A stretch of DNA of 64,000 bases from an uncultured Adlercreutzia sp. (GTDB lineage Bacteria > Actinomycetota > Coriobacteriia > Coriobacteriales > Eggerthellaceae): positions 30,073 through 94,072 of the forward strand of contig CAJUFS010000002.1 in NCBI GenBank assembly GCA_910585575.1, written 5' to 3'. A model generated the notes under the pieces. That model did no database searches, was not told the origin of the DNA, and saw nothing but the letters and a program-made list of their open reading frames with translations. Positions within the stretch are counted from its first letter, which is position 1. Every line of letters begins with the position of its first letter. Of the stretch, positions 9,281 through 57,486 are shown in pieces. A program made the position numbers and the translations under genes.

Positions 9281-9289
9281 GGGGGCAGT

Positions 9290-10808: not shown

Positions 10809-10847
10809 CTCTGCCCTGCCCGATTTCTGGGTTTCGCCAAATTTGGG

Positions 10848-10877: not shown

Positions 10878-10878
10878 G
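10852..10878 (+). repeat. Right copy of the direct repeat flanking hipBA
   Basis: Matches 9175-9201 at 26 of 27 bases and is preceded by the same CCAAATTT (10837-10844) that abuts the tRNA 3' end on the left. Confidence 0.7.
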
Positions 10879-10908
10879 CCTGCGGAAAGTGGGCGGCTGG
10901 CTGACGCT

Positions 10909-10975
10909 GAGTTCGCGAAACGTATGGTTCGGGGTGCGGAATGCAGGTTCCCCGAGGTACAGGTTTCGGTAGGAT
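10909..10975 (+). repeat. Copy B of the 67-bp block shared by two surface-protein gene leaders
   Basis: The gapless counterpart of 6377-6443, with its first 19 bases identical and about two thirds of the remainder conserved, including GGGTGCG, AATGC and TTTCG-TAGGAT. It lies 64-178 bp before the LPETG protein start. Confidence 0.6.
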
Positions 10976-11086
10976 TACTTCGAATAAGCGAAAGCGGTGC
11001 GCTCGGGGAGTGGGGCGCGCTGTTGCGAGAGGAGCGCCATGAATGGGAAGGCGCCTTGGAGTGCTTCGGAGAGAAGGAGCCTGCCG

Positions 11087-14677: not shown

Positions 14678-14747
14678 CTTGACGGCCTGCAACTGAATGC
14701 CCAGGGTCCGCTACGCCGGGCCCTTTCCGAAGAGAACGGAGCGCCCC

Positions 14748-16810: not shown

Positions 16811-17111
16811 GGGTCCTTAAGGAAAGCTCCGATCGCTCTACTCTTGCGTCGTTGCTCTGACTCTGCCAGTCATTTTCAGGTTCTTTACAGGAATATGTGC
16901 GTCATTGTGCAACTCTGTGTAGTCTCTGTGATTTGCGACACCGTGTTAATTAGCCGAGGAATAATAGCGGCCTAACCACAGAATGGTTACAATATCCAGT
17001 TAGCGCTCAGATTCTGGTATGACCCGACGCCCCTGGGAGGGACGGCATGGCATCGGCTGGGCAAGGATGCAGGCGCATAGGGCGCCTCCAGGAAGAAAGG
17101 TAGAGGGATTC
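16811..17111 (+). other. Gene-free stretch before the foldase gene
   Basis: A 301-bp AT-richer intergenic region. TCCTTAAGGA (16814-16823) is a 10-bp palindrome right after the kinase stop. A TACAAT -10-like box is at 16988-16993 without a clear -35, which would give a leader of about 115 nt for the foldase gene. A TTTACA box at 16884-16889 has no matching -10. No small gene or RNA is recognised. Confidence 0.4.
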
Positions 17112-18521: not shown

Positions 18522-18547
18522 GCGCTGCCTTCCCGCAAAACATGACC

Positions 18548-18582
18548 AAGGAACCCGCCGAATCGTGCGGGTTCCTTTTTTA
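18548..18582 (+). terminator. Terminator after the foldase gene
   Basis: Nine-base stem GGAACCCGC / GCGGGTTCC with an eight-base loop, flanked by AA and a run of seven T. It separates the foldase transcript from the next operon. Confidence 0.9.
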
Positions 18583-18596
18583 TCGGGCGCATTCTC

Positions 18597-18625
18597 TTTA
18601 CATTTGTCCGCGGAATTGTTAAAAA
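18597..18625 (+). promoter_or_regulatory. Promoter of the 182-aa / giant-protein operon, possibly leaderless
   Basis: TTTACA (18597-18602), a 17-bp spacer, and TAAAAA (18620-18625) preceded by TGT (extended -10). Initiation 7-8 nt downstream would fall at or next to the ATG at 18633, which has no Shine-Dalgarno, so the first gene may be translated from a leaderless mRNA. Confidence 0.45.
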
Positions 18626-18632
18626 TGCACCT

Positions 18633-19181
18633 ATGGAACTGGCCCCGACATATCCATCCCGCGCATCGCGTGAGGACGCGACGCGCTGCGATTCGAACGC
18701 CCATTGGCATACCGAGGTTGCGGCAACGGCGGCGCCCCTCAGCTCGTTCTCCTCGCGTGCCTGGACGATAGTGTTGGCATTATGCCTGGTTGCCGCCTTG
18801 GCCTGCACGGTGTTCGGCGGCATGGGGAGCACGGGCCGTGTGAGCACGGTGCTCGACAACGCAACGCCTTTGGCGGCGTCGGTGGCCGGTGACAGCTCGC
18901 GGTCGTTGGCGGTTACGGGCACGGAGTCCATTGCCGACGATCGTACCCCCATGGCAGCGGGCCCGACTGGTGCTTCAAATGACATTGCGAGCACGGCGGC
19001 TCCCTTGGCGTTGGTTTCGGCGGTCGGTTTGGTGATGGTCGGCGCCGCCTTTAAGGCGACGCGTCCGCAGCCGGCTGTATCAGAATGCCCAAACTGGCTT
19101 TTCAGGTCGTTTCGATCAGGGAAAGTCGGAGGGCGAGGAACAAAAACGGAGCAACACCATGGAACACAATACGCAAAATAA
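18633..19181 (+). CDS. Small membrane protein sharing the leader of the giant surface protein
   Basis: A 182-aa protein of unknown function. Residues 24-79 align without gaps to residues 40-95 of the giant protein downstream, 27 of 56 identical, including AHWHTEV, a hydrophobic export segment (about 44-66) and DNATP. After a short Ser/Thr/Ala-rich middle there is a second hydrophobic segment (about 132-152) followed by basic residues. Just before it lies SLAVTGTES, a possible degenerate sorting motif. No catalytic residues are evident. The ATG has no RBS and sits where transcription is predicted to begin. The 3' end overlaps the giant gene by 23 nt, suggesting coupled translation. It could be an accessory wall or membrane partner, or a decayed surface protein of the same family. 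Confidence 0.6.
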   Translation: MELAPTYPSRASREDATRCDSNAHWHTEVAATAAPLSSFSSRAWTIVLALCLVAALACTVFGGMGSTGRVSTVLDNATPLAASVAGDSSRSLAVTGTESIADDRTPMAAGPTGASNDIASTAAPLALVSAVGLVMVGAAFKATRPQPAVSECPNWLFRSFRSGKVGGRGTKTEQHHGTQYAK

Positions 19182-22100
19182 TCGTGGAAACGCCACGAAT
19201 AAGGGAGGCCTGGCGGGCGCCTTTGCGAAGGGGCGCAGCGACCGTCAGCGTGAAAACGCCTACGACTCCCAAGCCCATTGGCATACGGAGGTGCCGGCTG
19301 CCCCGGCGCCGATAAACTCCTTTGCCGCGAAAACGTGGACGAAGGTTTTGTCGGTGTGCCTGTCGCTGCTGCTGGCGCTGACGATGTTCGACGCCACGGC
19401 CCTGACCTCCTACGCCGACGAGCTGGCTGACAACGCCACGCCCATGGCCGACACGGCCGATCAGGAAGAGGCCGCCAAGGCCGCTGAGGAAGAGGCGCGT
19501 CAGAAGGCCGCCGAAGACGAGAAGACGGCCTGGGCCACCACGGTGCAGGGCGCCGCGCTCGACCAGAAGGTGCTGGCCTCGCTGGTGCCCCAGAAGCTCA
19601 CGTCCGCTACCGAAGTGCTCCCCCAGGTAACGGTCGACGCCGATCAGGCGAAGGAAACCAAGAAGGCCGACCTGGCTTCGCGCGTGCGTCCCAACCTCAT
19701 CATTTCCGGCGTTCCCTACAGCGGCGCCCAGGGCCTGTACGTGAAGGGCACCAAGGCGCGCGCCAACTTCGAGCTGGGCAACTTGGACGCCAGCCTGGAG
19801 GGCGGCTTCATTGCCGGCTCCCGCGAGGGCGATCGCTTCGTGTTCACCATTGAGGCTCCGTACCTGTACACCGACGACGAGGGCAACGTAGCCACCACCT
19901 ACTCTCAGGAAGAATGGAAACTGCGCACGGCCCTGGCCAACGAGGCTTCGCGCGCCATCGCCAAGGCCGACAATGCCGCCACCTCGCTGAAAGACGCCCA
20001 GACCGCCGCTGCCACCGCCGCTGCCGATGCAGCCACGGTGAAGGGCGCCATGCGCGCTGCCGTGTTCGCCGACGCCCTGCCGGCCGGCTGGTCGTTGTGG
20101 CAAGAGCATGACGGTCAGTACCTGCAGCTTTCCGCCGACGACCTGAAGGCCGGCGTGTCTGGCCGCCTGGTGTTGCGCTACGACGCCAACGGCGGCAAGC
20201 TCGACGCCAACGTGGCGCTTCCCCAGGTACAGCTGGGCTTCGTGGGCGGAGCACCTGAAGGTGCTCCCGTATCCGTCTACTACGGATACGAATACCACTC
20301 CTTCACGGGCGCCGAGGAGGGCGCCAAGCCCCAGTACGGTAACGTGAAGCGTGGCAGCGCCGGCATGTACGCCCTGGTCAACGAAACCAGCGATGCCAAG
20401 GCGAACCTGGCTGTGAAGCCGCTGTCCGCCGCTATGCCTCGCACGGCCGACGGCCGCGGCACGGGCTACCTGACTCAGCTTATTGCCTACGCGGTGCCCG
20501 AGAAGGCCCCCGACGCTACGGCCGTGGCTTTGGGCGCGTTCTTCCCGGCCGACTATCAGGGCAAGGGCGGTCTGGGCCTGGAAACTCTCATGGCCTACAA
20601 GATGAACAAGGACGACCAGCCCGAGGCCAACCGCTCCAAGGGCGAAGTCGATACCTCCAAGAAAACGCGCGAGGACAACACCTTCGTGGGCGTGCCCGGT
20701 AAGGGCGGCGTCATGGTGCTGGATGTTACCGGCCTGTCCGACGAGGAAATTGCCTCCATCAACCCCCTGAAGGCCTCTACCGTTGAGGCCCTGGGCCTGG
20801 AGGCGCTGCCCTACTCTGTTACCGAAGAGGGCCGCATCCAGTTGTCGCGCTCCGGTAAGGACGGTCATATCGACGCTGGTCAGAGCCGTACGCTGTATGT
20901 GGCTGCTCCCTATGCGGAAAACACCGTGGCCTTCGAGGGCAACGCGGACAAGTCTCAGCTGGTGAAGGCGCATTTCGATGTGCAGGTGGCCGCAGTGGCC
21001 GCCGGCGACAACACGGTGTACGCCGAGTCCTTTGATATCGAGACAGCCTTCCAGGCCGCCGAGTACGGCGAGGCCTTCATGACCGACGAAGAGGTCGAGG
21101 CCCAGCAGAAGGCCGAAGAAGAGCCTGCTCAGCCAACCGATCAGCCCCAGCTGCCCGGTCTGCCCACCATCGGTGGCGAGGGCAACCAGCCCGCAAGCAC
21201 CGACGAGCCCGAGGGCGATCAGCCGGCCCAGGGCGACCAGCCCGCCGACGAGCCCCAGGGGGCCGATCTGCCCGAGCCGCCGGCCGAGGCCAACCAGCCC
21301 GAAGAGCCGGCCGAGCCCGAAGAGCCCGCGGCCAACTACGTGGAGCATCCCGAAAGCGCGCCGGCGCAGCTGTACGACTCGGTAACGGGCTTCGATTTCC
21401 TGCTCACCTCCATGACCGGCATCATGCCCTTCGCCAACGACCGCGTGGACAAGCTGCCCGATACCTACTTGGATCCGAACCTGCATATCGGCAACGGTAC
21501 GCCGGTGCCCAACACTACCAATACGGTGATGATCAAAACATCGGAGCAGGTGTACATGAGCCTGCAGCCGAACCCTACGTACAAATCGGGCTATCTAGGT
21601 AAGTCTGAAATATATGAGATGGACGAGCGCCGCGATCAGGCCGTTATCTTCCGCTTAGATATTCCCTACCTTTACTTCGATGCCAAGGGCTCCAAGGAAA
21701 CGCTCAGCGTTGATGAGTGGGAGAAAGCTCAGCTGGTACCTGAAAACCAGGTGAAGTTCAAAAACGACCACCAGCGCTTGGCCTACTTTCCCGACACCGA
21801 TGCCATCAATCGTTACGATTTCTCGCAGGATGGCAACAACTGGTATACCGCAGAAGAGATGACCGATGAGGAGACGGGCCCCCTCAATACTGGCCTTTCT
21901 GGCACTTGGTACGTTCGCTATAAAGGTACGAGTAGTGAGAAGCTGTACCAATTGCTTCCTGGTGCCTCAACGTTAACGGGCCAGGTGCGCTTCGTCGGCA
22001 CGGTGCCCGATAACACTGGCGCCACCATTCTTTTGGGGTACAAGTATCAAACACTCACCAATGCCGATGGCACCGAAAAAGTGGGTTACAGCCCTACTGA

Positions 22101-25100
22101 GGTTGAACCTGGTCGACCTCGTGCTCAGGGCGCTTCCAACGTGCTGCGTGCCACTTTTATTCAAACGAACCTGAAATGGGAGCTCACCAACCGCTCTATG
22201 AATACGCCCGTGTTGTGGGATCAGTACAACTATGCGGTATATAAGGTGCAGGTGGAAAATACCTCCGATACGCGCGACTCCGAAATCGACTTCCTCAACT
22301 ATGTACTTATGTTTGATGCAGCCACGGGCTCTACCCCCGGCATCCGAGCCGAGGACTTGCTTACCTGGAAGCAGAAGAACGGTACGGGCGCGTTCAACAA
22401 GAACGATAACGTTGCCTACGACGAGAAGTCGGCCATGTATATCGGAAAGCCGAAGCAGGGCGGTGCCCTGGTGTATGACGTGTCTAAGCTGACTGATGAT
22501 GAGATTAATCAAATTGACTTTGTTGACTTCTCGAATGTGAAAGATTTTGGTCTACAAGAGCTTGCCTACGGTACGGGCGGCAAGGCGGGCCAGATTGCGG
22601 TCGATATTCGAGAAGAGGATATGCCGTATGGTAAACACCTGTTCTCTCATACCGATAAGGCTAATCTATCGGTAAGTCCTACTTATACGCCGCCTGAGGA
22701 TGAGTCAAACGTTCACACGTTGCTGGTGGCCATGCCCTATACAACAAACTACGGCAGTGGCGACAAGGATCTACCCACTGCTAAGCTGAAGACTTACGCT
22801 ACGGTGAACTTCGGTAACCGCGGTTACGACAAGGACGGCAACTCCAATGACTACCAATGGATGGAGGAGAAGCAGACTATTTCCAAGTTTGCTAATCCGA
22901 AAAATGAGGTAACGCTAGCAAAAAGTGCCAAACATATCAGCACTGGGGCTTTGGCTGAACGTCAGGATGCTCCGCTTGGCGAGATGGTCACGTACACGAT
23001 CGACTCTATCAACAATAAATCAAACACTCCGCTGTTTGGTGTGGATGCGAAGGCCACCTACGGCCCCGAGTTGTCCGACCAGTTGCCCCATGGTTTCCAG
23101 TTGTCAGGCATCACTATCCGTGTGAATGCGAGCGAAGAGTCTCAGATGGTGGGCGAAGGCGACGAGGCCCATCGTTCGGCGGCCCTGTCCGACTGGTACG
23201 ACACCACCAAAAATAATGGAGTCATTCAGTTCCAGGTTAAAGACAAGAGTAACAATGTAAGCTGGGTAAACCTAGATGCTGCCCTCACCGAGGTGGAACG
23301 CGCCGCCGACGATAGCTACGCCTTGTACCGCGTAGGCACGGTCGACACCGTGAGGGGTGGCATCGCTCAGATGCTGCGCGCCAAGAAGATCGGTGAGATC
23401 CCTGGTCGTAAATACACTTTCAAAGATGGCGAGATCGAGGCTGTCTTTACGGGCGTGTTCCGTGTGCTGTTCAAACATCAGTTACCCACTGATACCAAAG
23501 TGTCTAGCTCGATTGATGTTACGGGCCTCATGATGGAGCGCGTATCGAATGGCACTAGCGGTCGGTATGACAACTACGCTGACATCACCTATGGTGAGCG
23601 TCGCTGGAGCGCGCAGAATAATAAGTTCAATCAGCCGAAGGTGACGACGCGACCCGTGATGGCCGCTTTTGCCCCCAAGAATCCTGTGCCTCTGAATGTA
23701 GACAAGGTATTCTCTATGTATGACGGGTCGGGCACAACCGACTCCAATATGGCCAAAGAGGCGGACAGCCGGAATGCTTTGGTTAAGCAGCCTAATGCCG
23801 GCTATCGCTTCCGTTTTGGCAATGAATCTGAATCGCGTATGGCTCCGGCTGTCATTACTATCGGCCCTATTCCCGACGGCATGCGCCGCCTGACCGATGC
23901 TTCGGGCAATACGGTGCTGGATCCCACGACGCCTCGTAAAAATATGTTTGTGGCCAGCAAAATCAAGCTGGGGCCCGGTTTCTTCGGTGACAACGCGGTG
24001 GCGCCCATCGAGAAGATCACCTTGGGCTACTACGCTACCAATAACACCGGCGATGTGCTGCGCCGCACGAAAGAGGTATCAGTCAGCTCCTTTAAGCCCG
24101 AGTACAAGGACGGCGTTGCTACGGGCAACTACTACCTCGATTTGGAACCGTTGGGCATTGCCTACCTGCTGGATGTGCAAATCAACCTGGAAGAGTTCTC
24201 GAAGAGCAAGACCGTCGAGCAAGCTCAAGCTATGGTGGAGATCATCGGTACGCCTGACGAGGTGGGCGACATCACGGTGTCTTCCTACTTCCGTACCGAT
24301 TATGAGAATGCGAACTCGAACCTAGGCAAGGGCGACAGCGCCACGCTGCACTCCATGTATGTGCCGATCGCTCCGGCCGTCAGCGCCTCCTACGGTTATA
24401 TCGATGCTGCGGGAAACAATCAGGCCAGCGCGGTACCCTATCGTTGGGGCGACATGGAAGACGAAATCGCCTACTTCCGCTACAACCTCACCAACGACTC
24501 CAACTACTCCATCAGCGATTTCGACACTGATTTGCTGGTGAACAACTTGACCAAGGCCAACGATGGCACGCGCGATGTGTGGCGCGGCTTCCTGACGCGC
24601 TCCATAGTGGTGCCGGGCTTCAAGTACGGTGCCGTGGCGGTGTTGGATAGCGAAGGCAATCCGATGCAGGATGAGACTACCCACCAGCCCATCACCGAGA
24701 CACGTTGGTACTACCAGTATGGCGAGATCAGCTCCATCGACGTGTTTGATCAGCACAACGCCACAGGCACCATTATGAAGGACGAAAAAGAGGTGGCTCC
24801 CAACAAGAGCTACGACATCGTCGCGGCCCTGAAGAAGCTGGGCGCCTCGGGCGGCTCGGTGGACATGGGCGACGGTTCCACCTTGGTCATGGATGCCGCC
24901 AAGGGAACTCTTACGTTGAAGGTGGCTACGAATGGCCTGGTAAACGGCACGGTCTCTGCGGGCGCCTCCGAGAAGGCTCCCGTGAAGATGGTGCGCGTGC
25001 GCTACAGCAAGGTGAACGACCATGCCACGGGAAGCAATGCTCCGGTGGTGTACCTGTACGGTCGTGCCGACAGCCATACTAATGTGTCGACGAACATCCG

Positions 25101-28100
25101 CGGCTTTGCCACCACGGCCTCGTACGGCCCCGACATGATGCTGCCCATCGGCAAACGCATGAGCGGCAACACCAACCTCATGGCCGGCGGCACCACCATG
25201 ACCTTCGGCACGTTCGGCTCCAGCATTGATTGGACGGTCACCAAGAGCAAGAACGCCCGTCCGAAGCTGGGCACCGAAGTAACCGGCGCCGCTAACACCG
25301 CGGTAGAGGTGGCCAATTATTCCGACGGCAACGCCTACACCTTCACCATGAAGAATGCGGGCTACAACCGCGCCGACGACACCACGCTGTCGGTGAACAT
25401 CGACGACCTGAGCCCCTACCTGAAGGACCCGGTCAACGACGTTCAGGGCTTCAAGACACGCACGGTCACTCTCAACGACGCTCTGTTCAACTTCGGTACC
25501 ACGGTGCGCCAGGACAACGATCCCTCGAAGTTGGGCAGTGCTCTTCTGGGTGCCACCTTTTACTTCCGCGATGTGAAGGACGAGGGCGGCACGAAGACGG
25601 CCGTGGCCAAGGGCAAGACAGTCGAGCTGACCCTGGCTCAGCTGCAGGCGCTGTATACGGCGAACAAGCAGGCTGACAACACCTTTGAGCTGGATATGAC
25701 CACGGGTGACTTCGCCGACTGCGCCGATCTGTATTTGGAGCGCATCGAGTTCAACTACTCCGAAGTGGACCCGCATTTTGCCGCAGGTCAGAAACATGTG
25801 AACGCCGCCAATAACCGCGACGTGAAGGTGAAGCTGACCGGCAAGGTGAACCACTGGTACAACAACAAATTCTCCGAAGGCACCATCAGCGGCCAGAACG
25901 CACCCATTGAGTACTCGAAGGTGCGCGCCACGGCTCAGGTGTTGCAGACGGCGCCGCTGGATCACCCCAACAACAAGAATAGCGCCCAGGCCTACTTCAA
26001 GGTGTATTTCCCCGCGCTAGCGCTGCACACCTATGGCCAGTACGGCCCCAACTTCAATGACTATATGAACAAGCATGCCGTGGGCGACGGCAACTGCTCC
26101 GATGGCTCGCGCACGGTTATGGGCATTCCCTACGACCGCGATTTCAAGCTGTGGGCCAACCTGTACAACGAGCGCTCGGTATCCACGTTGGACGACCTGG
26201 ACGTTACGCTGCAGCTGCCCCTCGAGTACGAATCGGCGCTGCAGCTGGACGGCTCGTCGAAGAGCGACTACACGGGTTTCCATACCACGCGCGTTACGGT
26301 GAATGCCGAGCTGTTCGAAACCTTCAAGCGCGGCACCGTGGGCTCCATTGTGTTCACGGGCTACGACGAGGGCGCCGGCGCCAACACTAAGCCGGCCGTG
26401 ACGGTAGAGCTCTTCCCCGATCCGGACTACCGCGCTTCCAGCCGCACGCCCGTGCCGGCCGAAGAGGCGCTGCCCGATTACTTCGTTGACGCCAAGGGCA
26501 ACCAGTATACGTTCAACGACGAGGGCGATTTCGTCATCGAAGAGAAGACCCTGCGCGAGTGGGGCATTAAGAACCTCAAGACCGTGAAGCTGTCCTCGTG
26601 GCAGGACATGGCCGTCGACCACTCCTCGAATAAGAGCGAGCAGAATGTGGTGTTCGAGGGCTTCTCCGATCAGAACTTCGATACCTCGAAGTACCTGACG
26701 GCCACAACTGAGAATTACCTGCTGAAGTTGCGCGGCGCGAACATGATTCCCGGTATGCTGGGCACGCCGGTCACCCGTGCCGACCGGTCGCAGATCTATC
26801 TGTCGAAGATGTACTTCGACACCATCAACCGCGCCGGTCTGTACGACTCCAACGCCAGTGGCACTACCAACGCCCCGGGCGCGGGTCATCGCTTCTCGCA
26901 GTACACCTATGGCTCATGGGACAACTGCCATAGCCATCACAACAGCTCCTACGCCTCCAATGGCGAGTACAACTATGCCCTGGACGTGGGCTATAAGTCC
27001 CAGGTGTCGCTGCTGGCCGATTTCCGCCAGGTGAACACCCAGTACAACGAGTACGGCCCCGAGAACACCTGCCATACTGAGCAGGGTCCCTGGAGCTCCT
27101 ACAACTTCAGCGGCCGCAACCTGTACTTTGTGGGCGCCGAAACCTACAACACCGGCATGGTGCTGCACATGACCCAGACCATGCCCAACAACTACTTCGA
27201 CTCTTACTATCTGAAGATCCGTCGTCAGGCGGCCCAGTATGTGGACAAGCTGACGGTTACCTACTCCGACGGCAAGAAGATGGAGATCCAGGGCGACGAG
27301 ATCAAGGCGCTCCTGGCTGGCACCGACGCCGACTCGGTGCAGAAGGACTACGATAGCAAGCAGTACTTCCGCGTGAACCTGCTGGCGCGCGACGCCAACG
27401 ATGAGCCGGTAAAGAGCTTCGGCGACGACAACGGCGCCGGTTCCTACCGCCATCCCATCAACGACTACGAGAACGTGACGGTCACGCCCGGCTCGCCGAA
27501 GTTCACCGTGACCAAGGTGGAGTACGACATCCGCATCAACCAGCATCAGTTCGCTACGGGCGAGAACCGCTACATCTCGGGTCAGGGCGACTGGACCGAG
27601 AGCGATACGGCGAACGCCAAGGTGCGCCAGCCCGATTACGGCAGCTGGTTCGGCAAGACCTACAAGTCCATCGAGGACATCGTGAACCAGATGTCCTTCG
27701 AGGTGAATGGTCGTATGTACACCGAGACCACCACCGCCGGCATGAACATGTACGTCGACACCTCCCTGGAGGTGGGCGGCACGAACTCGGGCAACAACCG
27801 TCCGGGTCACGTGGCGCTTACCCGTTCCGATACGCCCGAGCGTCATGCCAACGATCGCTATGCCAGCGCGTGGTCCTACCAGGACTACCATCGTACGGGC
27901 GACTACTGGCATCACTACGATGGCGTGGCCTACATGCGCCACCTGCGCAGCCGCACGAACGTGGTGGCCCGCACCGACGGCAACTACACCATGGAGGGTA
28001 TCAACTGGGGCGGCAAGGATCAGACCCAGCTGAACGATTACGATAACTATGTCAGCGGCACGAGCCACGCCCTCTTCGGTGGCGACGTGAACTTCGCCAC

Positions 28101-31100
28101 CTCGTTCTACCGACATACTATCTATAGAGGTATCTATTCGGGCGATCAGAGCTACACCAGCACCTGGGGCTCCGACACCTATTACCCCAATGACTGGGGC
28201 TGGAATTACACGTCCTTCGCCGACAAGGTGAACATTGGCGACACGCTGCCCTGGTGCCAGCCCGACGAGGACTTGGGCTACTATGGCTTCTTGTCCACGG
28301 GCCTGCAGGTGAAGGCCGGTGTGCTGAACCATCTGCGCAGCTACGACCGCGCCACCATCACCTTCACCACGAAGAAGTGGCACGCCACCGAGGATCTGAA
28401 CACCGACGGCTTCGCCATCTTCGAGCAGGAGGCCGAGGGCCGTACCTTCCAGCTGCGTCAGGACGGTCTGTACGAAAAGAACGGCGAGACTTGGAACAAG
28501 ATTTCCAATGAGGGTCTGGCCTTCCTGACCGCAGGCGGCACGGCTGGTTCCGGTGGCTACATTCAGTTCAGCCGTCCCGACGAGGAGCCCCACAAGGAGA
28601 TCATCGACTACAAGGCCGCCAATGGCAACCGTATGGTCACCATTCCGCTGGACACCAACGAGTTCATTGCCACCTACGACATGAACCTGGGCCCCTACAA
28701 CGGCAACGGCGACATTACGGGCGAGCACACGGGCCTGTCCGTGGATCGCGACGGCAACAGCGGCGTCATCGACATCCGCCTGCTGGGTCGCCCCTACATT
28801 TATAAGGGACAGAAGCACCCTGCCTACAAGTTGGCTTCGGGCAAGCACGACAGCTGCGGTGACGTAGTGGATGCCCGCAACCATGTCAGCTCGCGCTCCT
28901 ACAACTTCAAAGATCTGTCCACGCCCATCGGCAGCTACACGGCCCAGTCGTTCTCGGGCGTGCACCCGGGCCACACCGACTGGAAGAGCTCGAGCAACGC
29001 CAGCATCGAGCATCGCAACCGCGACACGGCCTACTTCCTGGGCTACCTGATCCCTTACGGCTATCATTCTTGGCTGTCGGTAAATCGTAACGGCGACAAC
29101 TACCACAGCCTGAACCGCCCCGACGTGCCCGACTACCAGGCCGATAACTTGACGCCCAACGTGGTGCGCTACGAGACGCGCTTCCGGAATATCAACGACG
29201 TGAACGAGGGCGTGGACGACGAGAACCGTGCCGCCCATATCAGTCAGGTGCGCCTGCGCACCAGCTGGAACCCGGCGTTTACCCAGCCTGTTACCGGTGG
29301 GGCCGACTCGCTGCGTGTGCAGAAGGTGTACGTGCCGGCTCAGTTCGTGCCCGTGGGAACCCACAGTCGCGACGACAACTGGTTCCGGGCTCAGGACTTC
29401 CAGTTCACGGTTTACCACGTGCAGCTGGGCACCACGGCCACCGTGCGCCTTTCCTGGAACGATATGATCAACCTGGGTATTCTGTCCGGTACGGTGTCGG
29501 GCTCTGGCACCTCGGCCACCTTCACCAGCAACACCAATGCCAGCTCGGTGTACCCTGGCTGCTTCGTCATCGACATCGAGAAGTATCTGCGTATGACCGA
29601 GGTGAAGCAGGCCAACGCCGATAAGTCCACCGACGAGCTGTTCAAACTGTTTGCCGATGAGTTTGGCGCGAACCTGGCCGGCTACACGTTGGCTGCGGGT
29701 CAGACCGAGGCTGACGCCAAGAAGCATGTGGTCGATCTGGTGCAGGCTGGTATCGTGGGCCACTATGCGGCTACGGGCAAGACAAACACCCTGGGCGGCG
29801 CCTTCGAAGCCGACCCTTCGGTGAACCTTACCTATGCGGCACCCTATGTTACCTCGGCGCAGTTCCTGTTCGTCTCGCCCCACTCCAACCGCGAGAAGCC
29901 GGCCACCATGCTGGACTCTGGTCAGTGGCTGGGCGCGAACCGCTCGCGCAATAACGAGGATTACCAGAACAACTTCGCCTTTGCCTATGATGGCGTGTAT
30001 GCCGATCGCGAGGTGGAGGACTTCCGCACCGCCGCGGAAACGGGCAACGATCCGGTGAAGGGCAACTGGAACTACTGGTCCACGCCTACCTTTGACAAGC
30101 AGGGCAACGGCTTCGGCGGTATGCGCATGACTACGGGCCTGACGGTGTCCGACGTGGTCACCCGCGACCCCAACAAGAAGAGTATCGTGCGCCACGAAGA
30201 CAACACGCGTCAGTACGACCTGTCCCATCGCCTGGGCGTGCTGACCACCGACATGCAGCGCGGCAAGAAGGTGCAGATGAACGGTACTACCACCTCCATC
30301 TTCGCCTACGACGCCGACAGCAAGTCCGCTACGTCGCCGGTCAGCTACAACCCCGATGCCACTACGGGCACCAACGGCAGCGGCATCCCCAACGGCGACC
30401 TGTATGCCGGTGACTACGTGGAGTACCGCCTGTACGTCGGTGCCGGATCGCAGAAGGTGCGCACCGATCTGACCAACAGCGGCTCCGATGCGGGCACTCC
30501 CTTCGAGCTGGATCCGCTGCCTCTGCAGCATGTGGATGCCCGCTTCGAGGTGGGCAAGGGCCAGCGCATTGTGGGCTGGGAGGTAGAGAAGTACTACGAC
30601 AGCACCAAGAAGAAGTGGGTGGATAACAACAGCGCTGCCCAGGGCTCCGGTGCGGTACTGCCGGTGACGGCGAAGCTGACCCAGGCCGATGGCTCCGGCG
30701 CCATCAACGTGGATCCCCAGGTGGATCTGTCTCGCGCCACGGCAGGGGAGGGCGACGGCCGCACCTTCGGCACGGGCGACGAGCAGTACGACCAGAACCG
30801 CAACCTGGTGTTCTCCATCGGCGACGCCTACACGGCCACCAAGAACAACGCCAACGCCACCAGTCAAATCGATCCGGGCCGCGGCGTGTGGATCCGCGTT
30901 ATTACCCAAATGACCGACGAGTGGGAAGAGGACGAGGCCTACAACGACGAGGCCAACCAGACGAACCGCAACGACGAGCCTTCCTACAAAGGCAAGTCAC
31001 TGCGCGCCAACTTCTATGCCGTGGCGGCTCCGCTCCATGGCTACACCCAGTACCGTTGCTACAACAACGACGGCTCGGGCGGCGGCAACAACAAGGCTAC

Positions 31101-43100: not shown

Positions 43101-46100
43101 CGATGACGGCGATGGCTACAGTGTGGACACCTGCACCAACCCGTCCATCTCGGCGCTGCTGCCGCGCATCCAGAATTTCGGTCCCACCCCGGGCTCGATG
43201 TTCAATTCGCTGCCCGACTTGACAGCCAATCAGAAGAAGCGCATGACTCAGGCCGACGAGGTACGCGCCATCGGCACCAAGCTGCAGGCGCTTCTCGACG
43301 ACTCCGATCGCGCCGCTTTTGAGGCGCAGCTGACCAGTTTGGCCAACCAGCTGGAGAAACTGTGCGGTAAAGAGCGCACCGATACGGAGGCGGCCATTGC
43401 TCCCACCATCCTGAACGGCGATGCGGTGCCCGAGACGTCGCGTACCGAGGTAGAGGGCATCATCAACGCCCTGCGTGCCCAGGTGAAGTCGCTGCGCGGC
43501 TATCATCCGCGCTCAGTGGCCGACGACGGTACCGTCACCGAAGAGGGCTACGACCTTTCGTCGGTGCGTCCCTCGGACGTGAAGGCCGCTGGCCGCAACA
43601 TCTACGCCCAGGGCAACGCGCTGGAGAAGCGTGTGACCAAGGAGCGCCCGTTCAGTCGCGTGTTCCAGTACATCCCCTATCAGGACATGCTGAAGACCGC
43701 CACAAAGGACGGCCAGCTGGATGCCACGGGCTTGGCGGTTAAGAGCGGTGCGGCTCTGAGCCCTCTGTCTGAGAGTTACCGCCGTAATCCTACGTCGAGT
43801 TCTGCGGGGGATGCCTCCCATATGAATACCCAGGTGCCCTTGTGGACCTATCGCGTGGTGAAATTCAAGGAGTATATGCGCGACGACTTGGGCTACCTGT
43901 GGCTGCAGAACGACGACCAGAGTTGGTCCTATGTGGGTATAATGACTGACGAAGGCACCATTAACCGCGAAATTCCCGAGGGCGAGACTGCTCCCGCGGC
44001 GCCCGCTGGCAAACCGGTGGCTCTGGGTAGCCTCACTGAGTTCGACGAAGTGCCCATCGGCACGTCCACTGCGGCTTTGCGTCCGGAAGAGGGTATGACC
44101 AAGCTCGGGCAAGGGGTTTTGGCCAATGGCGGTTCTTCCATCACCTCGAAGGACGAGTTTGCCTACTTGTACGATTTGAACGGCGGCGCTGGTGACGGTT
44201 CCGAAACCACCAGCGGCACCGCTAACACCCGTCGTTCCTTCACCTGGAACTTCATGGGCCAGAACGGCAGCCGCGGCACGTTGAACCCCGGTGAGGCCAT
44301 CATTGTGGATTTCATGATGCAGTTCAGCCCGCAGTCTTCGGCCTCCACCGACGTGGGCAACGCTCTCATCCTGTCGGCTTATGCTGACAAGGCCGGCAGC
44401 TACAACTTCTATGACTATCCGCTGTTCCGCACCGAGACGGTTCCCGGCACCAATCAAAAGTTAACGAAGCTGGTGACGAAGGCGACCATCAACGATCCGG
44501 AGACCTCCATCACCAAGGACTCCTCCTATCGCTCCGACATCAACGACGGTAACGGCAACAATGACCGTTCCGAGACGCTGTTGCGCAAGGACACCTCGTC
44601 CATCGGCTGGTCCAACAACGACCAGGTAGTGCAAGAAAAGATGGTGCAGCCGAAGTACACTGACGAGAAGTTCTCGAAACGTTCGCAGACCGCGGCCGTG
44701 CCCGAGGGCACGTCCTACACCTACGAGCTCATTCAGCAGTACACCGGCATCAACGACAATACGGCCCTGCTGTACAAGCACTCCACCTTCGCCGACACTA
44801 TGCCCTTCTTGGGCGACAAGGAAACGTCCACCTACGACAACAACGTGAAGAAATACAACCTGCGTCAATCCCAGTGGAGCGGCTGGCTGCAGGACCTGGA
44901 TTCCATCAAGATGGAGTACACCGACACCACCCCCACCGAAGAGGGCGACATCAAGGGCAAGTACGAGCTGCGTCTGACTGAGGAGAAGGACAAGGTCACC
45001 GGTGAGCCGCTGCATGCCCAGGCCCAGGTGTGGGTCGGCCCCATCAAGGTGGAGGGCGACAGCAAGAGCGGCACCCTAAAGCTGACGCCGCTGACCACTG
45101 ACGAGATGGTGCAGCCAGTCGATGTGGCCAAGGCTCAAGCCGGATCCGAGGGTTGGGGCGATGACGAGCTGGACGAGTTCATCACCCGCTGGACCACCCA
45201 GAAGACCACGGGCATCACCTACGGCAGCGACGGCAAGACGGTCACCGAGCAGGTAGCCGTGTCGCAGTCCATGGCCTCCATTAACATGATCGACCTGAAC
45301 GAGCTGAAGACCTACGTGAAGAGCCATCCGGCCGAGAAGGAAGCGCTCACGCGCTGCATCGGCTCCATCTGGTGCCGTGTGCTAGATGATAATCTCGTTC
45401 TGATGGCCCGCAACGGCGACGTGCGTTTGAAGTACGATCTGAAGGCTCCGCTGAACCTGCCTAAGTACCTGGGCAGCGCCGACAAGACCTTCAAGTCCAT
45501 CGACGGCCTGCAGGAAGATTCCACGGTGCTGCAGAAGAACCTGTACGCTACCAGCCAGTGGAACACCTTCATGTCCATGGTCGACTACCGTTCTGGCGAG
45601 AACGGCCTGACCTACCGCAAGCTGGAGAACAAGCCGGCCGGCGTGTACGTGGACGCCCCCGAGGGCTATGGCTACATCGGCAGCTATGTGTGGCTCGACA
45701 GCAACTGGGATACCCTGCAGAACGACACCAAGGGCGAGGTGACCCAGGACCTGTTGGGCAACGACACCACCTATCATAAGGCCACGAACGGTCGCTACAT
45801 CCTGTCCACTGAGAAGTCCATCAAGGACGGCAAGTACGCCTACACCTACGACGGCGGCAAGGACACCTCCAAGCTGATGCAAGACCTGGACTACGACGGC
45901 AAGCCGGACGATCCGGGCGTAAACGGCGTGAAGGTCGAGCTGCTGAACGAGTGGGGCATTCCGGTGAACCGCAATGGCGAGGCCGTGGTGCAGGTGAAGG
46001 AAGACGCCACCTCCTCGAAGTTGATCTGGGTGAAGGCCGATCCGAAGACGGGCAAGGCCATCAAGGGCCTGTACGGCTACGAGCCGGTGACCACGGCCGA

Positions 46101-49100
46101 GAACGTTGATCTGGGCGCCTACGTATATACCACGGAATCCGACTACTACAACAACCAGGGCTACTACATGTTCTCGATGCTGAAGCCGGGCAACTACCGC
46201 CTGCGCTTCACCTTCCCGAAGCAGTACTCCAACTATGCCCTTACCACCAAGCGCATCGGCGCCAAGGAGGCTCCGGTCATCGATGAGAAGGGTGTGGATC
46301 AGGGCGCTACCGAGGACATCTCCTCCTACATGATGGTGAACCGCACGAGCGGCCAGATGGTGGCTACCTCCGAGGTTATCAAGGTGGAGCCGGTAGCCTT
46401 CGACGCCGAGCGCTATGCGGCCGGCCTGGAAACCAACGGCAACGAGATCTACGATGCCAAGATGACCAGCTACAACGTGGGTATCGCCCTGCCGGTTACC
46501 TACTCCGGCGTGGCCTACCGCGACGACAAGCTGGCCGGCTACGAGGATATGGAAGAGGATCCCGAAGAGGGCGGCTCCGGCGAGGGTGACGGCGACGGCG
46601 ACAACTCCGGCAACGAGGGCGGTGGCGACCTGTTCGGCAAGTCCGCAGCCCCGGCGTCGGTGGCCGAGCCGACGGCGGCCGACGATCTGCTCACGGGCGA
46701 CCTGGGCATTGCCCCGCTGTCCCTGACTCCCGATAACGCGCCGGCCTACGACGCCTCCCAGGGCGAGCTGCCCCCGTTCATCATGGTGAACGGCAAGCCC
46801 ACCCTGAACATGAACAAGTACGTGGAGGACGACGGTTCGGTGGATCCGGAGCTCATCGACGGCGTGCTCGACTGGGTGAACGTGAACCTGGACGAGTCGA
46901 ACCCCTATGAGTACGCACTGGCAGTGGAAGAGCTGCGCCTGAAGAACATGCAGGTGCAGGTGCAGGTGTACGACGAGAAGAGCCGCACCTGGAAGCAGGC
47001 CTACGATACCGACGGCAACAAGGCCATCACTCAGACCGACTGCTACCTGGAGGTGACCCTGGACAAGGGCGCCACCTGGCAGCGCGCCTTTGACGCCAAT
47101 GGCAACAACCGCGTCAGCGCCGAGGTGCTCGACAGCCTCGATCCGGCCACGGAGTGGCGCTGGACGCCCATCAGCTCGGGCAATGCCACCGAGGCCACGG
47201 GCTCCTTCACCTTCGACCTGGAGCCGGGCCATACCTATAAGGTGGTTTGCCGCGACATGCGCAACCGTATTCTGAAGCCCTCGGTTATGACGTGGGAGAA
47301 CGACCCGCTGAAGCGGCCGACCCAGAATGCCGAGGATCAGAAGAAGGATGCCGAGGGCAAGCCGGTGGACCAGGTGGCCGCCATGTGGGACAACGACCTG
47401 TGGCTGAAGAGCGGCGTGGCCGAGACCAACAGCTTCGAGGCCAAGGTGCCCGTGGATTCCAAGGGCCGCGCCATCTACGAGGATCCGAAGAACCCGTGGA
47501 AGGGCTTCAAGATCTACGACAAGCTGGCTCTGGGCTGGATCGACGGCACCAAGGGCTTCCTGGGCAACTACATCTGGAGCGATAAGAACGACGGCGTGGA
47601 CGCCAACGGCAATCCGCTGTACTACGACGGCCTGCAGGGCGACGTGCCGAACATCGGTGTGGGCCAGGTGAAGGTGACGCTGGAGCAGTACTACTGGCGC
47701 CCGGCCGATGCCGACTCCTCCGACCCCACCCAGTACCGCCCCGGCACTGTTGACGGCGATGGCGACGGCGAGTGGGTGCTGAACGATCTGGAGTACAAGA
47801 CCACGAAGTCCTCCAGCGCCGGCAGCTACATCTTCAAGGGCGTGTCCACTTATGTGATCGACCCCGAGGCGCCGAAGACGGTAGACGACGAGCAGAAGGC
47901 TCACTACCTGGCCGGCTACCGCGTGCGTATCGATCGCGACGACCTGAAGCTCATCACGAAGGACTGGGGTCTCACGTTCCGCAACGCGCCGAAGAGCGGC
48001 CTGACGGGCGGCTTTGACGAGGAGATCGACTCCGACGCCGCCATGAGCGTGCAGAAGGTGAAGAACGCCGACGGCTCCGACTACCTGAAAGATGGCAAGC
48101 CCGTGTGGGCCTACTATCTGAACGAGATGAACAGCGGCTCGGCCATGGTGCCCGGCATTGCCGTGGGCAGCCAGGGCGTGGGCGGCGGTCATGACGCCGA
48201 CGTCTCCTACCAGCAGATGATCGTGGTGGCCGGCAACGTGGACACCCTGGCCCGTGAGAACCTGGGCGCCTACCTGAAGGGCAAGAACGTCATCAGCGAG
48301 GCCGAGGCGGAGACGTTGACCATCGACGAGATGATGGCCCGCATGGACGAGGCCATGATGCGCGACTACCTCATCACCAGCAACGCCATGGCCGAGAGCG
48401 AGACGCCCACCGTGAACGCCATGAAGCGCATGATCGCCAACTTGAGCGGTGCCTCCGAGGGCAATGTGCGCACGGTGAAGGGCGGCTATTCCAACACCTC
48501 GCCGCGGGCCGGCTACGATCTGGGCGCTGCCCAGCGTATCGAGCATTGGGATGTGGGCCTGGTCGAGGTGCCGCGCTCCTCTATTACCGGCAAGGTGTGG
48601 CACGACGAGAACTACGACGGCATCATGGATACCGACGAGGACGGCCTGCCGGGCGAGTCGGTGTCCGTGGAGCAGTACTACTATAAGGACGGCGCCTGGG
48701 TGCGCAACGATCGCTTCGGCTCGGATGAGCGCACGAGCGTGGCCGCCGCCTGGAAGACCGAGAAGCGCAACGACTTCCAGGGCAAAGAGGAAACCTGGTG
48801 GGTGCGCGAGTACGCGGGCGTCGACGGCAAACCGGTGAAGGTGGAGATGAAGGCCGAGCTGGACGGCGACGGCAAGCCGCTGGTCGGGGCTACCTATCCC
48901 TCGGGCGAGACGGTCGCCAACGGCTTCGTGACGGTGCACACCGACGAAGAGGGCGCCTATACCTTCGAAAATCTGCCCACGGCCTATACCAATGAAAACG
49001 GCGAGCACTTCCTGGCGGCCTATCGCGTGGTGCTGAATGGCCTGCATCAGGACGTCACCACCGACGAGAAGGGCAACCCGCTGTACGCTACGCCGTGGAT

Positions 49101-52100
49101 GATGACCCACTACCATCAGGGTAGCGACGTACAGGCTGACTCCGACGTGCGCGACAGCCAGCCTGGCACCCTGGGTGCCTACAAGGTGCTGGGTCGCGAG
49201 ACCGTGGGCGTGGGCGACGGCGCCTCTACGGTGCAGCGCGCCCTGGACGGCCAGATCATCCTGGCCGCTGAGGTGGGCGCGGGCCGTGAGTATCCGGGCC
49301 AGATCTCCCAGATTGAGGTGTCGGCCGCCGATGTGCACGAAGGTGCTACCGGCACGGTGAAGTACGACTACCTCACCAAGCGTGCCAATAAGGTGCAGGG
49401 CGGCGACGTGGGCGAGCTTCCGGTGCCTCGCCGCGAAATTTCCGGCCGCGTGTGGCACGACGAGAACTACGACGGCATCCAGGATGCCGAGGAGCAGTCG
49501 GTGCCGGTGCTCGACGACGAGGGCAATCCCGTGGTCGACGCGGAGACGGGCGAGACGGTCACCACCACTGAGCGCGTGTTTACCGAGCCCGGCCTGGAGG
49601 GTGAGACCGTTGCCCTGACCCAGTGGTACTTCGACCCGGCCACCGGCGAGTGGGTGCGCAACGAGTCCTTCGGCCACGACGGCTTCAACTTCCTGGCGGC
49701 TATCGCCACCGACGAGTGGGCCGAGGGCGCCGACCATGAGGCCACCCTGTCCGATGACGGTATCGTGACCCTGACCACCAATGCTGAGGGCCGCTACAGC
49801 TTCAAGAACCTGCCCACGGCCTACGTGGACGACCAGGGCAACCTGTACCTGGCCAGCTACCGCGTGCAGCTTGTCGGCCTGCATCAGCAGGAAGTGAAGG
49901 ACGCCGCCGGCAACGTGGTGTCCCGCATCCCCTGGATGATGACCCGCTTCCACGACGAGAACGCCGCCCTGGTGGCCGACTCCGACGTGGACGATGCACT
50001 GCTGGGCACCGAGGAAAGCTACACGCTGCTGGGTCGCCAGGACGCCTTCGAAGAGGCCACGCCCGAGGGCCAGCGCGCCCTGGACGGCCAGGTCATCCTG
50101 GCCGCGCCCAAGGCCGCCACGGCGCTGGTGGAGGAGACCAAGACCACCCTGGTGAACCTGAACCAGAACAACGTGATCGAAAACGCCGAGGGCACCGTGG
50201 TCTACGACATCATGCGCGCCAAGCAGGAGGCGGCCTATGACGGCGGCGACGCCGGCCAGCTGCCCGTGCCCACCCGCTCCCTCGAGGGCCTGGTGTGGCG
50301 CGACGCCGACTACGACGGCCTGCAGGACACCAAGACCACCGAGACGGTCACTAACAAGGACGGCAACCCGCTGAAGAAGCTGGTGGAAGAGGGCCTTGAG
50401 GGCCAGACCATCACGCTGGAGCAGTGGTTCTACAACCCCGCAGCCGTGAACACCGAGAAGCCGGTCTTCCTGACCGACGACTTCGACTACGCCACGCTGA
50501 ACCTGTCCGGCAAGATCGATGCCAACTACGAGAACCACTGGTTCAAGAACGAGAACTTCGGCACCGACATCTACACGCTGCTGAACGACGACGAGCATCC
50601 GCTGGTTCAGGGCGACTGGGCCGCCGACGCCTCGGTGGCCGACGGTGTGGTGACCATCAAGACTAATAAGAAGGGCGTGTACCGCTTCGACAACCTGCCC
50701 ACGGCCTACACCGACGAGAACGGCAACCAGTTCCTGGCCGGCTACCGCGTGAAGTTGGGCATGCTGACCGAGAACTACAACTCCGACCATTACGATATGC
50801 CCCAGGAGGGCGCGTGGATGATGACCCGTTTCCATGCGGGTACCGCCGCCGAGGCTCTGACGGCCGACTCCGACCTGCCGGACAACCTGGGCATTACCAA
50901 GAACTACCCGCTCATCGGGCGCGAGGACTTTGTGGCCGATACCAGCGAGCCCGACGAGGCCGGCAACGTGACCGTCACGCCCAAGCGCTACCTGGGCCAG
51001 CGCCAGGAGATGCTGGAGGGCCAGGTTATCCTGGCTGCCGTTTCCCAGGACAACGACGGTGCCGGCCGCGGTGCCACGGCCAACGCCACCACCGCCGGCT
51101 CCGACTTCCAGAACAACCTGACCGATCCCATGACCTTCGACTGGATGGCCGCCCGCGCCTACGCCGAGGACGAGGACGCCGTCGAGGGTGGCGACGCCGG
51201 CCAGTTGCCGCCGCCCACCCAGGATATCGTCGGCATCTTCTGGAACGACGCCGACAACGACGGCGTGCAGTCCATCGATGAGTACGGCAACCCCGTGGTG
51301 AACGACGCGCAGGGCAACCGCATCATCATCGACTACAACGCCGACGGCACCATTCAGGTGTTCGAGGCGCTGCTGCAGGCCGACCCATCCACCAACGGCA
51401 CCGAGGACGCCGACACCATGAAGGTGGTGAAGGGCAAGCGTATCCAGTACTCCGAGGCCAACGCCGACGGCAAGGTCACGCTGTACCGTCTGGCCGCCGA
51501 CGGCACTACGTTCGAGGTGCAGAAGGTCTACGAGGCCAACCAGCTGAACGAGGCCTACCGCAACGGCGACGTGTACGACGAGAAGGCCAGCGAGGATGGC
51601 ATCAACAACGCCCGTGTCACGCTGGAGCGCTACATTCCCGACGCCGACGGCAACTGGGTGGAGGATCCCGAGTGGGCCAACAGCGACACCTACGAGCTGG
51701 GCGGCAAGACTTGGGATGACTACCGCAGCAACCCGGCCACGGTGTGGGGCGATGACCCGCAGCACGTGCAGTACACCAAGGTGCAGGAGGCCTCCGACGG
51801 CACCGTGCGCGCCGGCGTGTACCGCTTCGAGGATCTGCCCACCCAGCGCGCCGACGCCGACGGCAAGAAGATCGTCTACGGCTACAAGGTTCGCTACACC
51901 GACTCCGGCTACCAGCAGCGCGCCTGGATGATCGCGAAGTACCAGCAGAAGGACAACTTCACCCAGGACTCCGACCTGATCAACCTGAACGCCAACCTCA
52001 TGCAGGATAACGAGGTGGACGTGCTGCTGAACCGCAAGGACGAGAGCTCGGTGTTGGGCAACATCACCGAGGGCAACGCCTCGAACAACGACAACCAGGA

Positions 52101-55100
52101 CAAGGGCCTGCTGTCGCTCGACGAGGCCCTGGCCCAGAAGAAGGACGCCGCGGCCAGCCTGCCGGCGGCGAATACCCTGGCCACGGGCTTTGCCAGCGTG
52201 CTGGCCTCGACGGTGGCGAATACGGCCCAGTCCATGGGTGCCAGCCCCTTGGCCGCCGGCGCCGAGCTGTACGACCTGGGCGCCGGCTCCGACCGCGCCT
52301 ACAACGACGCGGCTCTGCTGAAGCGCAAGACCGGCACCATCGAGGGCGTGCTGTTCCAGGATGAGAACTACGACGGTGTGCTCCAGGGTAAAGAGGCGCG
52401 CCTGGCCGGCAAGCGCGTGTACCTGCATGCATGGGGCCTGAAGCTGGTGGCCGACGGTTCCGCCGAGTGCACCTGCAACGACGACGACAAGACCACCGGC
52501 GAGGGCCAGTTGCCCGCTTCTGCCGGGGCCATCACGTCGCCGCGCGAGGGCTACCACTACGAGTGGGTGCCCGAGGACGACGGCATCACTTCTACGACGA
52601 CCGACAAAGAGGGTCGCTACGCCTTCGAGAATCTGCCGGCTGCCACCCGTCACGTGAAGACGGGCGATAGTGGCTCCTGGAAGGACGAAGTGGGTGGCGA
52701 CAAGGACACCCTGGTGACCGATAACTTCGACGAGTGGTATCTGCTGGGCTACACCATCGAGGTAGAGGGCGCCGCTGCCGATACGCTGGACGCCGATCAT
52801 AAGGATGAAACGGTGATGGGTCTGCCCGTTACCCGCCTGCTGAGCGACGATGCGGTGGAGGGCGACGAAGAGGAAGAAGCGGAGCCCGTGTCCGAGGCTG
52901 CCTCCAAGGTGCACCGTGCCATGGATTCCGACAAGCTGAACGAGCGTCTGGCCAACAGCGCCGGCTACGGTGCCGACCGTTTCGCCATCACTATGAACCA
53001 GGTGAACGATCAGGGCGAGACGAAGTCGGTGCTGGACGGCCGTCTGGTGCTGGCCGACCGCGCCACCACGGCCGAGGATGCCGTGGGCGCCACCGATCCT
53101 ACCTATTATGTGAATGCCAACGGCATGGAGTTCGACCTGTCCACCATCCGCGACGCCGACTGCATGAACGGCGGCTTCGGCCCGTTCGGTACCGCCACCA
53201 TCGCCGGTGTGGCCTGGAACGACGCCAACTACGACGGCATTCGCGACTACGTCACGTCGCTGGACGTGCCCGAGGAGGGCGATGAGGGCGAGGACGGCGA
53301 GCCTGCCAAGCCCACGCCGCCCACTTCGGTGGTGAACCTGGAAGAGCCCCTGGTGGGCGAGACCGTGTACTTGACTCAGGAGTACCTGGACCCGACCACC
53401 AACAAGTGGGTGTTCAACCCCGACTTCGGTGGTGCGCTCGATCCGAAGGTGGGCGACTTGTCCGCGACGGACAAGTCGGTGACAGTGCGTACGGTTACCG
53501 CCAATACCGAGTACTCGATCAGCGGCTTCGTCGACGGCGATGGCAACCCGGCCGAGATTTGGTTCACCGAGCCTCACGATCCGAACCTCGACAACCAGAC
53601 GGTGTTCCCGTGGCCTGGCGAGCCCGGCGAGTTCACCGATGGCATGACGGTGACGACGACCGACGAGGACGGCAACGAAGTTACCTATACCTTGACCGTC
53701 ACGCCCAACACCGAGTACAAGGTCACTTGCCGCCAGAAGGGCTCCGATGGCAGCTACGCCGTCAGCAAGACGCCGGTGTACGTGGCCACGCGCGGCGAGT
53801 CGAAGCTGGCTGACGTTGCCTTTGCCGAAGGCGAGATGATGGCCACGGCTACGAAGATCATGTTCACCGAGAAGCCGCTGTGGTGGCGCGACCTGGCCGA
53901 TCCCGACCTGGCCACGGCCGACGAGCAGGAAGGCTGGAACGGCTGGGAGTACGCCGCCGTACCGGTGGACGCAACCGATGATGACATCGAGGCCCTGGAC
54001 AGCAGCGCTTGGTTCCACAAGAACGCAGCCGGTCTGGTAACCATCGACAATCTGACCCAGCGCACCCACTACCGCGTGGTGGCCCGCATTCGCGCCTTCG
54101 ATGAGTTCGATCTGCCTGACGTGGCCGCCAAGGCCGCGGAAGACGCCGTAGCCGAGCTTGAGGCCTTGGGCCTGGTGGTGGAAACGGCTCAGGAGCACAC
54201 CGACGCTGTGCCCAACGGCGCGGTCATCCGCACCGAGCCGGCCGCCGGCGCCACGGCCAAACCGGGCATGACCGTGAAGGTGATCGTGTCCAGTGGCCCG
54301 CGCCAGCCGGTGACGGTGCCCGATGTGACCGGTCTTGACTTCGAGGCGGCCAAGGAAGCTCTGACGGCCGCCGGCCTGAAGGTGAGCGCCCAGGTGCCCA
54401 CCGAGGAATTCAGCGACGAGGTGGCTGCCGGCCTGGTGCTGAGCACGAGCCCGGCCGTCGATGCCGAGGTGCTGGAGGAGACCGAGGTGCGCCTGGTGCT
54501 GTCGAAGGGCCCGGAGCCGGTGGAGCCCACCGAGCCTACCGAGCCCGGCGAGTCCACTGACCCGAGCGAGCCGACGGATCCGACTGACCCGAGTGAGCCG
54601 ACCGATCCCACCGAGCCCGGTCAGGGCGAGGATGGCGACAACGCCGGCGGCGACGAGGGCGACGGCTCCGATACCGGTGACACGGGCGAGGGCGAAGGTT
54701 CCGACGCTGGCACCACCGAGCCCAGCCAGGGCGAGGGCGCCGAGGCGGGCACCGACCCGCTGGCGGGCGCCGCGGCGGCCTTCAACCTCATGCGCGTGGC
54801 TGGCAGCCCGCTGTTCACGGCGACTTCCTTCCCGACCATTGCGCCGCTGGCTGCTGGGGTTCACAGCCGTTACGAGGATGTGGACGAGAACGGCGCGGTG
54901 CGCACGCTGAAGACGCTGGCCATGATCCAGGGCGAGGCCACGGGCTACGTGCCCGAGGGCGCCACGGATCCGCAGAAGCCCGAGAAGCCGGCGCCTCCGG
55001 GCTCCCGCCGTGCGGAAACGGACAAGGAGGGCATCTACCGCTTCGACGACCTGCAGGTGTACGTGCAGAAGAACAAGAGCGGCAAGTTGGTCAGCTACGA

Positions 55101-57486: not shown

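Follow-up and report, generated by a model that had tools for sequence, protein, structure and literature searches.

The locus analysed here raises the question of whether an exceptionally long reading frame in an uncultured Adlercreutzia sp. (Eggerthellaceae) encodes one real polypeptide and what kind of protein this would be. The frame, of 12,775 codons, lies in a 64,000-nucleotide stretch of the genome, referred to here as the window (GenBank assembly GCA_910585575.1, contig CAJUFS010000002.1, positions 30,073 to 94,072), and window positions of its features are collected in Table 1. The gene proved to be intact, and we consider it probable that its product is secreted, linked to the cell wall through an LPQTG signal and acting as a very long single-chain adhesive fibre. 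In agreement with the sequence-only reading, which had described an uninterrupted frame with an export signal at one end and a sorting signal at the other, the translation of the whole frame contained a single stop, located at the terminus, and the contig (C2 of the 136 contigs of this 2.76-Mb genome) contained no N and thus no gaps in the frame. Based on the gene's own position-specific base use, 254 stops were expected in this frame, with a probability of approximately 1e-111 of finding none, and the remaining five frames across the same stretch carried 25–536 stops each. The DNA is GC-rich, with a GC content of 0.84 at third codon positions (GC3). Because such DNA also leaves an antisense frame of 4,054 codons free of stops, frame length alone is no proof of coding; antisense frames up to this length were rejected as genes and read as high-GC3 shadows. 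The coding status of the giant gene follows instead from the conservation of its frame among relatives.

The comparison with other members of the genus demonstrated that the giant gene is conserved along its length in cultured Adlercreutzia. Orthologous frames of 12,741, 12,633, 13,426, and 12,860 codons were identified in four isolates (G001, G004, G003, and G002, respectively), with identities to the window protein of 66%, 64%, 57%, and 45% over 96%, 94%, 93%, and 78% of its residues. A fifth orthologue, in G008, leaves the contig end after approximately 6,050 codons. In the close pair G004 and G008, the ratio of nonsynonymous to synonymous substitutions (dN/dS) was 0.074 over 6,048 codons and stayed within 0.059–0.096 across all blocks of 1,000 codons. 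The window gene and that of G001 are far more distantly related, and their ratio was 0.40 (0.29–0.54 by block), at synonymous distances of 0.53–1.14 that approach saturation in places. The first 2,000 residues were matched in seven of the nine genus genomes, including the one under study and G007, the latter by a 199-codon fragment alone; zero match was obtained in the other two, among them G005. This genome, a single contig with 99% completeness, was without any giant-family match, and its longest frame with an LPXTG-type match comprised 4,094 codons. A homologous-protein search with a 10,000-residue reference returned just two and four proteins.

Both ends of the protein carry surface signals. 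The ribosome-binding-site-like GGAG is separated by 7 nt from the ATG, and only two hydrophobic stretches capable of spanning a membrane were found, around residues 60 and 12,740. The first belongs to an extended signal region with the conserved pattern AHWHTEV...WVRVLSVCLSLLLA.TMFDATAL.SYADE, in which cleavage is likely after SYA, judging the sequence by eye. Against a cut-off of 20 bits, the C-terminal anchor (PF00746) reached 26.7 bits when the genome was scanned, 23.0 for the final 455 residues, and 19.3, just short of the cut-off, within a 4,775-residue piece. Sortase genes were represented by two matches above the cut-off and one below, all on contigs other than that of the giant, and the protein is predicted to be exported and anchored by sortase to the cell wall. 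The possibility of a sortase-assembled pilin was rejected, since the WxxxVxVYPK motif is absent (a bare VYPK occurs once) and all three sortase matches are on other contigs. Whole-frame conservation, purifying selection, and the two hydrophobic ends thus uphold the earlier proposal that the frame encodes a genuine single polypeptide bearing signals for export and for sortase.

Between these signals, the protein can be divided into a head and a stalk. The head, of approximately 9,700 residues, consists largely of a family found only in Eggerthellaceae giants, and the earlier statement that the mid-region matches no known family held true: Pfam gave no match in residues 1–8000 at an E value of 0.01, NCBIfam gave nothing in residues 1–7500 beyond one sub-threshold DUF11-type match, and profile searches of two parts against the PDB gave nothing significant, with best E values of 0.37 (residues 130–1215) and 0.2 (residues 3160–4240). 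No catalytic or transport domain above the cut-off was detected by Pfam in any part of the protein or by NCBIfam in residues 1–7500. According to the structure model, residues 130–1215 are Ig-like, with modules similar to ones in adhesins and other proteins. The C-terminal 4,775 residues, in turn, contain SdrD_B, PASTA, and the anchor, with PF17210 (SdrD_B) above the cut-off in three of ten C-terminal pieces and weaker in two further ones. The motif G-x-V-W-x-D-x-N-x-D-G occurred seven times, all within residues 9,811–12,342, compared with 16 occurrences in a 23,358-codon relative, all from residue 15,248 onward, and three in a 9,349-codon frame; residue shuffles gave means of 0.04 for the window giant and 0 for the 23,358-codon relative. 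From these positions and counts it follows that a long head is common to the giants and that stalk length differs. Relative to seven neighbouring genes, the composition of the protein is higher in D, T, S, N, and K, lower in R and C, and similar in E (6.8 v 6.1%). A weak lumazine-binding match and one PASTA match were each observed in one of eight members of the mid-region family.

The arrangement of the giant recalls the staphylococcal Sdr/Clf MSCRAMM adhesins, which combine Ig-like outer modules, SdrD_B modules, and an LPXTG anchor with an SD repeat and a YSIRK signal. The first three elements are shared by the window giant, whereas the latter is approximately ten times longer and the profiles of two parts of its head match no solved structure. 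Neither an SD repeat nor a YSIRK signal was found in the window giant, and membership of the MSCRAMM group was therefore rejected despite the SdrD_B modules.

The window gene is not alone in its genome. Related giants of 23,358 (contig C1), 12,775 (C2), 11,324 (C7), and 10,349 codons (C18) were identified, together with frames of 1,197 and 9,349 codons on C1 that are split by a 10-N scaffold gap (G000:C1:116311-116320). These five giants comprise 68,352 codons in total, or 7.4% of the genome bases. The window giant is homologous to the 23,358-codon giant and to a frame of 24,922 codons in A. caecimuris B7, which equals the published A. equolifaciens giants in size. A model of 1,565 positions built on the N-terminus matched 23 of 138 Eggerthellaceae genomes, including the one under study, 16 of which, in five genera, hold frames above 9,000 codons. 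At the level of the order, 27 of 395 genomes matched, four of them outside Eggerthellaceae and by the signal region only, in frames of 562–4,694 codons; the matching genomes without a 9,000-codon frame (7 of 23 in the family, 11 of 27 in the order) showed fragments or the signal region only. The mid-region model (residues 3160–4240) matched 19 of 395 order genomes and 4 of 396 phylum genomes, all Eggerthellaceae, in frames of 3,000–34,927 codons. As at most two to three candidate stretches were scored per genome in the family, order, and phylum searches, the matches per genome are lower bounds. The longest frames reached 34,927 codons (G135:C39; L112–L117) and 30,639 codons (G136, whose genome is one contig); each terminates in LPQTSD and contains no N. 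The view that the window protein is among the largest of bacteria is thus true in kind, and it is surpassed by larger relatives in its own genome (23,358 codons) and genus, the frames of relatives overall reaching 34,927 codons. Copies within the family vary in the inserts of the head and in how many modules the stalk contains. No match to residues 3160–4240 was found in plasmid or phage collections, and an origin of the giant from either source was rejected on this basis.

Runs of 9–13 G were present at 11 of 39 giant 5′ regions, at −67 to +174 nt relative to the open frame; these regions were selected because they matched the N-terminal model, and two of them (G058b and G079B) are in short contig-end frames. 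Six of the 11 runs were located within the 5′ coding region, in frame with an upstream ATG in G133a and G003b and out of frame with it in C7, C18, and the gap gene of C1, all in the genome under study, as well as in the 34,927-codon frame. In C7 and C18, a further ATG in the frame of the giant immediately precedes the run, while in G135:C39 a G13 run is situated between the frame and an out-of-frame signal region. The other five runs were upstream of the frame, in the window gene's orthologues of G001, G004, and G008 and in G058a and G057B. Loci with runs include contigs C1, C7, and C18 of G000, L084, L090, and L112, and the orthologue leaders L028, L032, and L040. In the remaining 28 regions, the window gene included, no run of 9–13 G was found in the same range, and for the window gene no run of at least 7 G occurred from window position 18001 to 1.5 kb into the gene. 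The genome under study holds 22 runs of at least 9 G, three of them at giant starts, and G001 holds 36 (runs merged by eye); at these two densities, a set of 39 such stretches should contain approximately 0.05 runs, although densities vary between genomes and the 39 stretches are not independent. Overlapping nine-G matches numbered 2 in G002, 184 in G058, and 2–76 in ten other genomes of the search besides G058. Frames were read around 13 of the 22 runs of the genome under study, ten of those at non-giant sites, and run lengths in assemblies are unreliable. These runs suggest a likely phase variation of several family members, the window gene excepted, in which slippage at the 5′ poly-G run would switch the giants on or off. 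No published poly-G switch for Eggerthellaceae giants was found among the matches listed. In Bifidobacterium breve, the reading frame of sortase-dependent pilus genes is set by a G run that lies within the gene close to its start (PMC9187656); both cases concern a gut actinobacterium and sortase-anchored surface genes with a G run at or close to their beginning, but those pili are encoded by operons with their own sortase, in contrast to single giants, and the window gene is without a G run.

Regarding the neighbourhood, the gene for a peptidyl-prolyl isomerase, to which the label PrsA was assigned in this analysis, ends 0.6 kb from the start of the giant. Synteny was assessed in eight named loci; a ninth, L083, which is a contig of 3.2 kb, was left out. 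Six of the eight (L075, L076, L078, L079, L080, and L082) carried an isomerase match a short distance upstream of the giant and in its orientation, and L077 and L081 carried none; matches were also found at L089 and L094. There was no such match in the 16.8 kb upstream of the 23-kaa giant (kaa, thousand amino acids) or in the approximately 1.4 kb upstream of the C7 and C18 giants. The window genes between Mrp and PrsA (protease, HipA, LPETG protein, and two-component pair) had no match in the eight loci. Among them, a papain-family protease of 778 residues with a lectin-like domain (6568–8904) adjoins a HipA-type gene (9507–10808), and an LPETG-ended protein of 1,226 residues (10997–14677), whose body gave no Pfam or NCBIfam match, is followed by the LytTR regulator and GHKL kinase genes (14697–16810); no regulatory claim is made for these last two because they were unmatched. 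LytTR-type binding repeats upstream of the giant were likewise rejected, with one each in G004 and G008, none in the other four, and never a pair.

The start of the giant overlaps by 23 nt a 182-codon gene in another frame, and both genes are likely co-transcribed. In G001, G004, and G008, a TTGACA-like box, a spacing of 16 nt, and TACAAT precede the giant, with weaker versions in G002 and G003, all recognized by eye. Alignment with G002 showed that the window is without the stretch holding this giant-proximal promoter and carries the 182-codon gene there instead.

Table 1. Positions of the giant gene, its parts, and adjacent features in the window.
Feature	Position	Strand	Basis or remark
PrsA/SurA-like peptidyl-prolyl isomerase, 500 aa	17019..18521	+	Rotamase and SurA_N domains
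Terminator-like hairpin downstream of foldase gene	18548..18577	+	Sequence scan
Promoter-like site, the only one found within 16800-19400	18597..18626	+	Sequence scan
182-codon gene, two hydrophobic segments, paralogous to the N-terminus of the giant	18633..19181	+	Open reading frame, homology
Ribosome-binding-site-like GGAG, 7-nt spacing to ATG	19148..19151	+	Kept in G001 and G002
Giant gene, 12,775 codons, ATG start	19159..57486	+	Predicted product 1.397 MDa, isoelectric point 4.5
Extended signal region (residues 39-86) with AHWHTEV motif and a hydrophobic core around residue 60	19273..19416	+	Conserved
Head, residues ~87-9780, non-repetitive, large parts homologous to other giants	19417..48498	+	Homology, Pfam/NCBIfam scans
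Modelled part, residues 130-1215: beta modules at model residues 1-520 and 640-1086, low-confidence linker between	19546..22803	+	Structure model
Mid-region family, residues 3160-4240; model of low confidence (predicted local distance difference test, pLDDT, 40)	28636..31878	+	Found only in Eggerthellaceae giants
A/V/E-rich insert, residues ~5082-6006	34402..37176	+	Absent from paralogues g9 and g23, mostly absent from G002
Stalk, residues ~9783-12403: SdrD_B-type motifs, PASTA (two stretches), P/E/T-rich linkers	48505..56367	+	Pfam, motif count
LPQTGD sorting signal, hydrophobic span, RRR tail	57340..57483	+	Sequence and PF00746
Antisense frame beneath the giant, 4,054 codons	45382-57546	-	Open reading frame list; read as high-GC3 shadow

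As an adhesive fibre, the giant would hold its C-terminal SdrD_B stalk next to the wall and lift the head into the surroundings (mucus, host, or other microbes), with the neighbouring PrsA-like isomerase likely helping the chain to fold outside the membrane. The same protein could instead form a mechanical or shielding fuzzy coat against phage, host factors, or grazers, without a specific ligand, a reading that we regard as unlikely. Five acidic giants accounting for 7.4% of the genome bases suit a coat, and the presence of poly-G runs in 11 of the 39 giant 5′ regions would be consistent with escape from a predator or a host response. Such a shield would also tolerate the faster amino-acid change in the distant pair (dN/dS of 0.29–0.54). 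On the other hand, a non-repetitive head under strong purifying selection in each 1,000-codon block of 6,048 codons, albeit in one close pair, goes beyond the needs of a spacer, and its Ig-like modules have counterparts in adhesins as well as in other proteins.

The large head without a recognised family leaves room for other domains, and together with PASTA this could accommodate a scaffold that captures nutrients or holds further surface proteins, instead of a protein serving attachment. This explanation appears improbable given that no catalytic or transport domain was detected in the searches described above. That the frame is a fossil or mis-assembled, and not translated as one chain, is hardly credible. 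The assembly is fragmented into 136 contigs, and the promoter of the G001, G004, and G008 giants is missing in the window, where the stretch is deleted relative to G002, but frame lengths are similar in four isolates, the close pair yielded a dN/dS of 0.074, and the contig is without N.

When compared to reported giants, the window gene belongs to the giant LPXTG kind known in Adlercreutzia since 2013, when two such genes of A. equolifaciens were published (PMC3778203). Common to both are the genus, single giant frames above 10,000 codons, and a C-terminal LPXTG sorting signal. Of the composition typical of this kind, rich in D, E, T, S, and N and poor in K, R, and C, the window protein shows the trends in D, T, S, N, R, and C, but not those in E and K. 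In contrast, the A. equolifaciens genes span 74–75 kb each, and the window gene falls with the giants of 12–13 kaa that neighbour a PrsA-like foldase; neither a division into head and stalk nor a G run or a larger family is described in the text of PMC3778203. The homologues in subsp. celatus measure 37,689 and 61,890 bp (PMC8142583), and a swine relative is reported to be without giant LPXTG genes (PMC4599084). Apilactobacillus kunkeei (PMC12863079) carries the surface proteins Giant1–5, of 3–8 kaa, encoded by five consecutive genes that occupy approximately 6% of a small genome. Several giant extracellular proteins filling a similar genome share are thus found in both organisms, although those of the window genome are of 10–23 kaa and lie on four contigs, a distinction drawn from descriptions only. 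Within the literature searched, the family map, the head/stalk anatomy, the foldase synteny, and the G runs seem to be new relative to earlier work.

Taken further, and only tentatively, Eggerthellaceae may possess a private arsenal of wall-anchored giants of 10–35 kaa, up to five per genome, with a unique head family, adjustable SdrD_B stalks, and a foldase beside one class, in which poly-G switching at the first codons or in the leader would give cell-to-cell combinations of fibres. The 12.8-kaa giant of the window, off its own promoter and joined to the small membrane gene upstream, would be a constant member of this arsenal. If functional, the G runs would make single strains mixtures of surface types, with a bearing on colonisation, phage sensitivity, and strain-level metagenomics, and a wrongly counted G run may lead to giants being annotated as broken or split. 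Adlercreutzia is known for converting soy isoflavones to equol (PMC3778203). Filling 7% of the genome studied here, and with a mid-region family that occurs in just 4 of 396 sampled phylum genomes, all Eggerthellaceae, this family of 10–35 kaa surface proteins is an obvious candidate for how Adlercreutzia holds on in its habitat.
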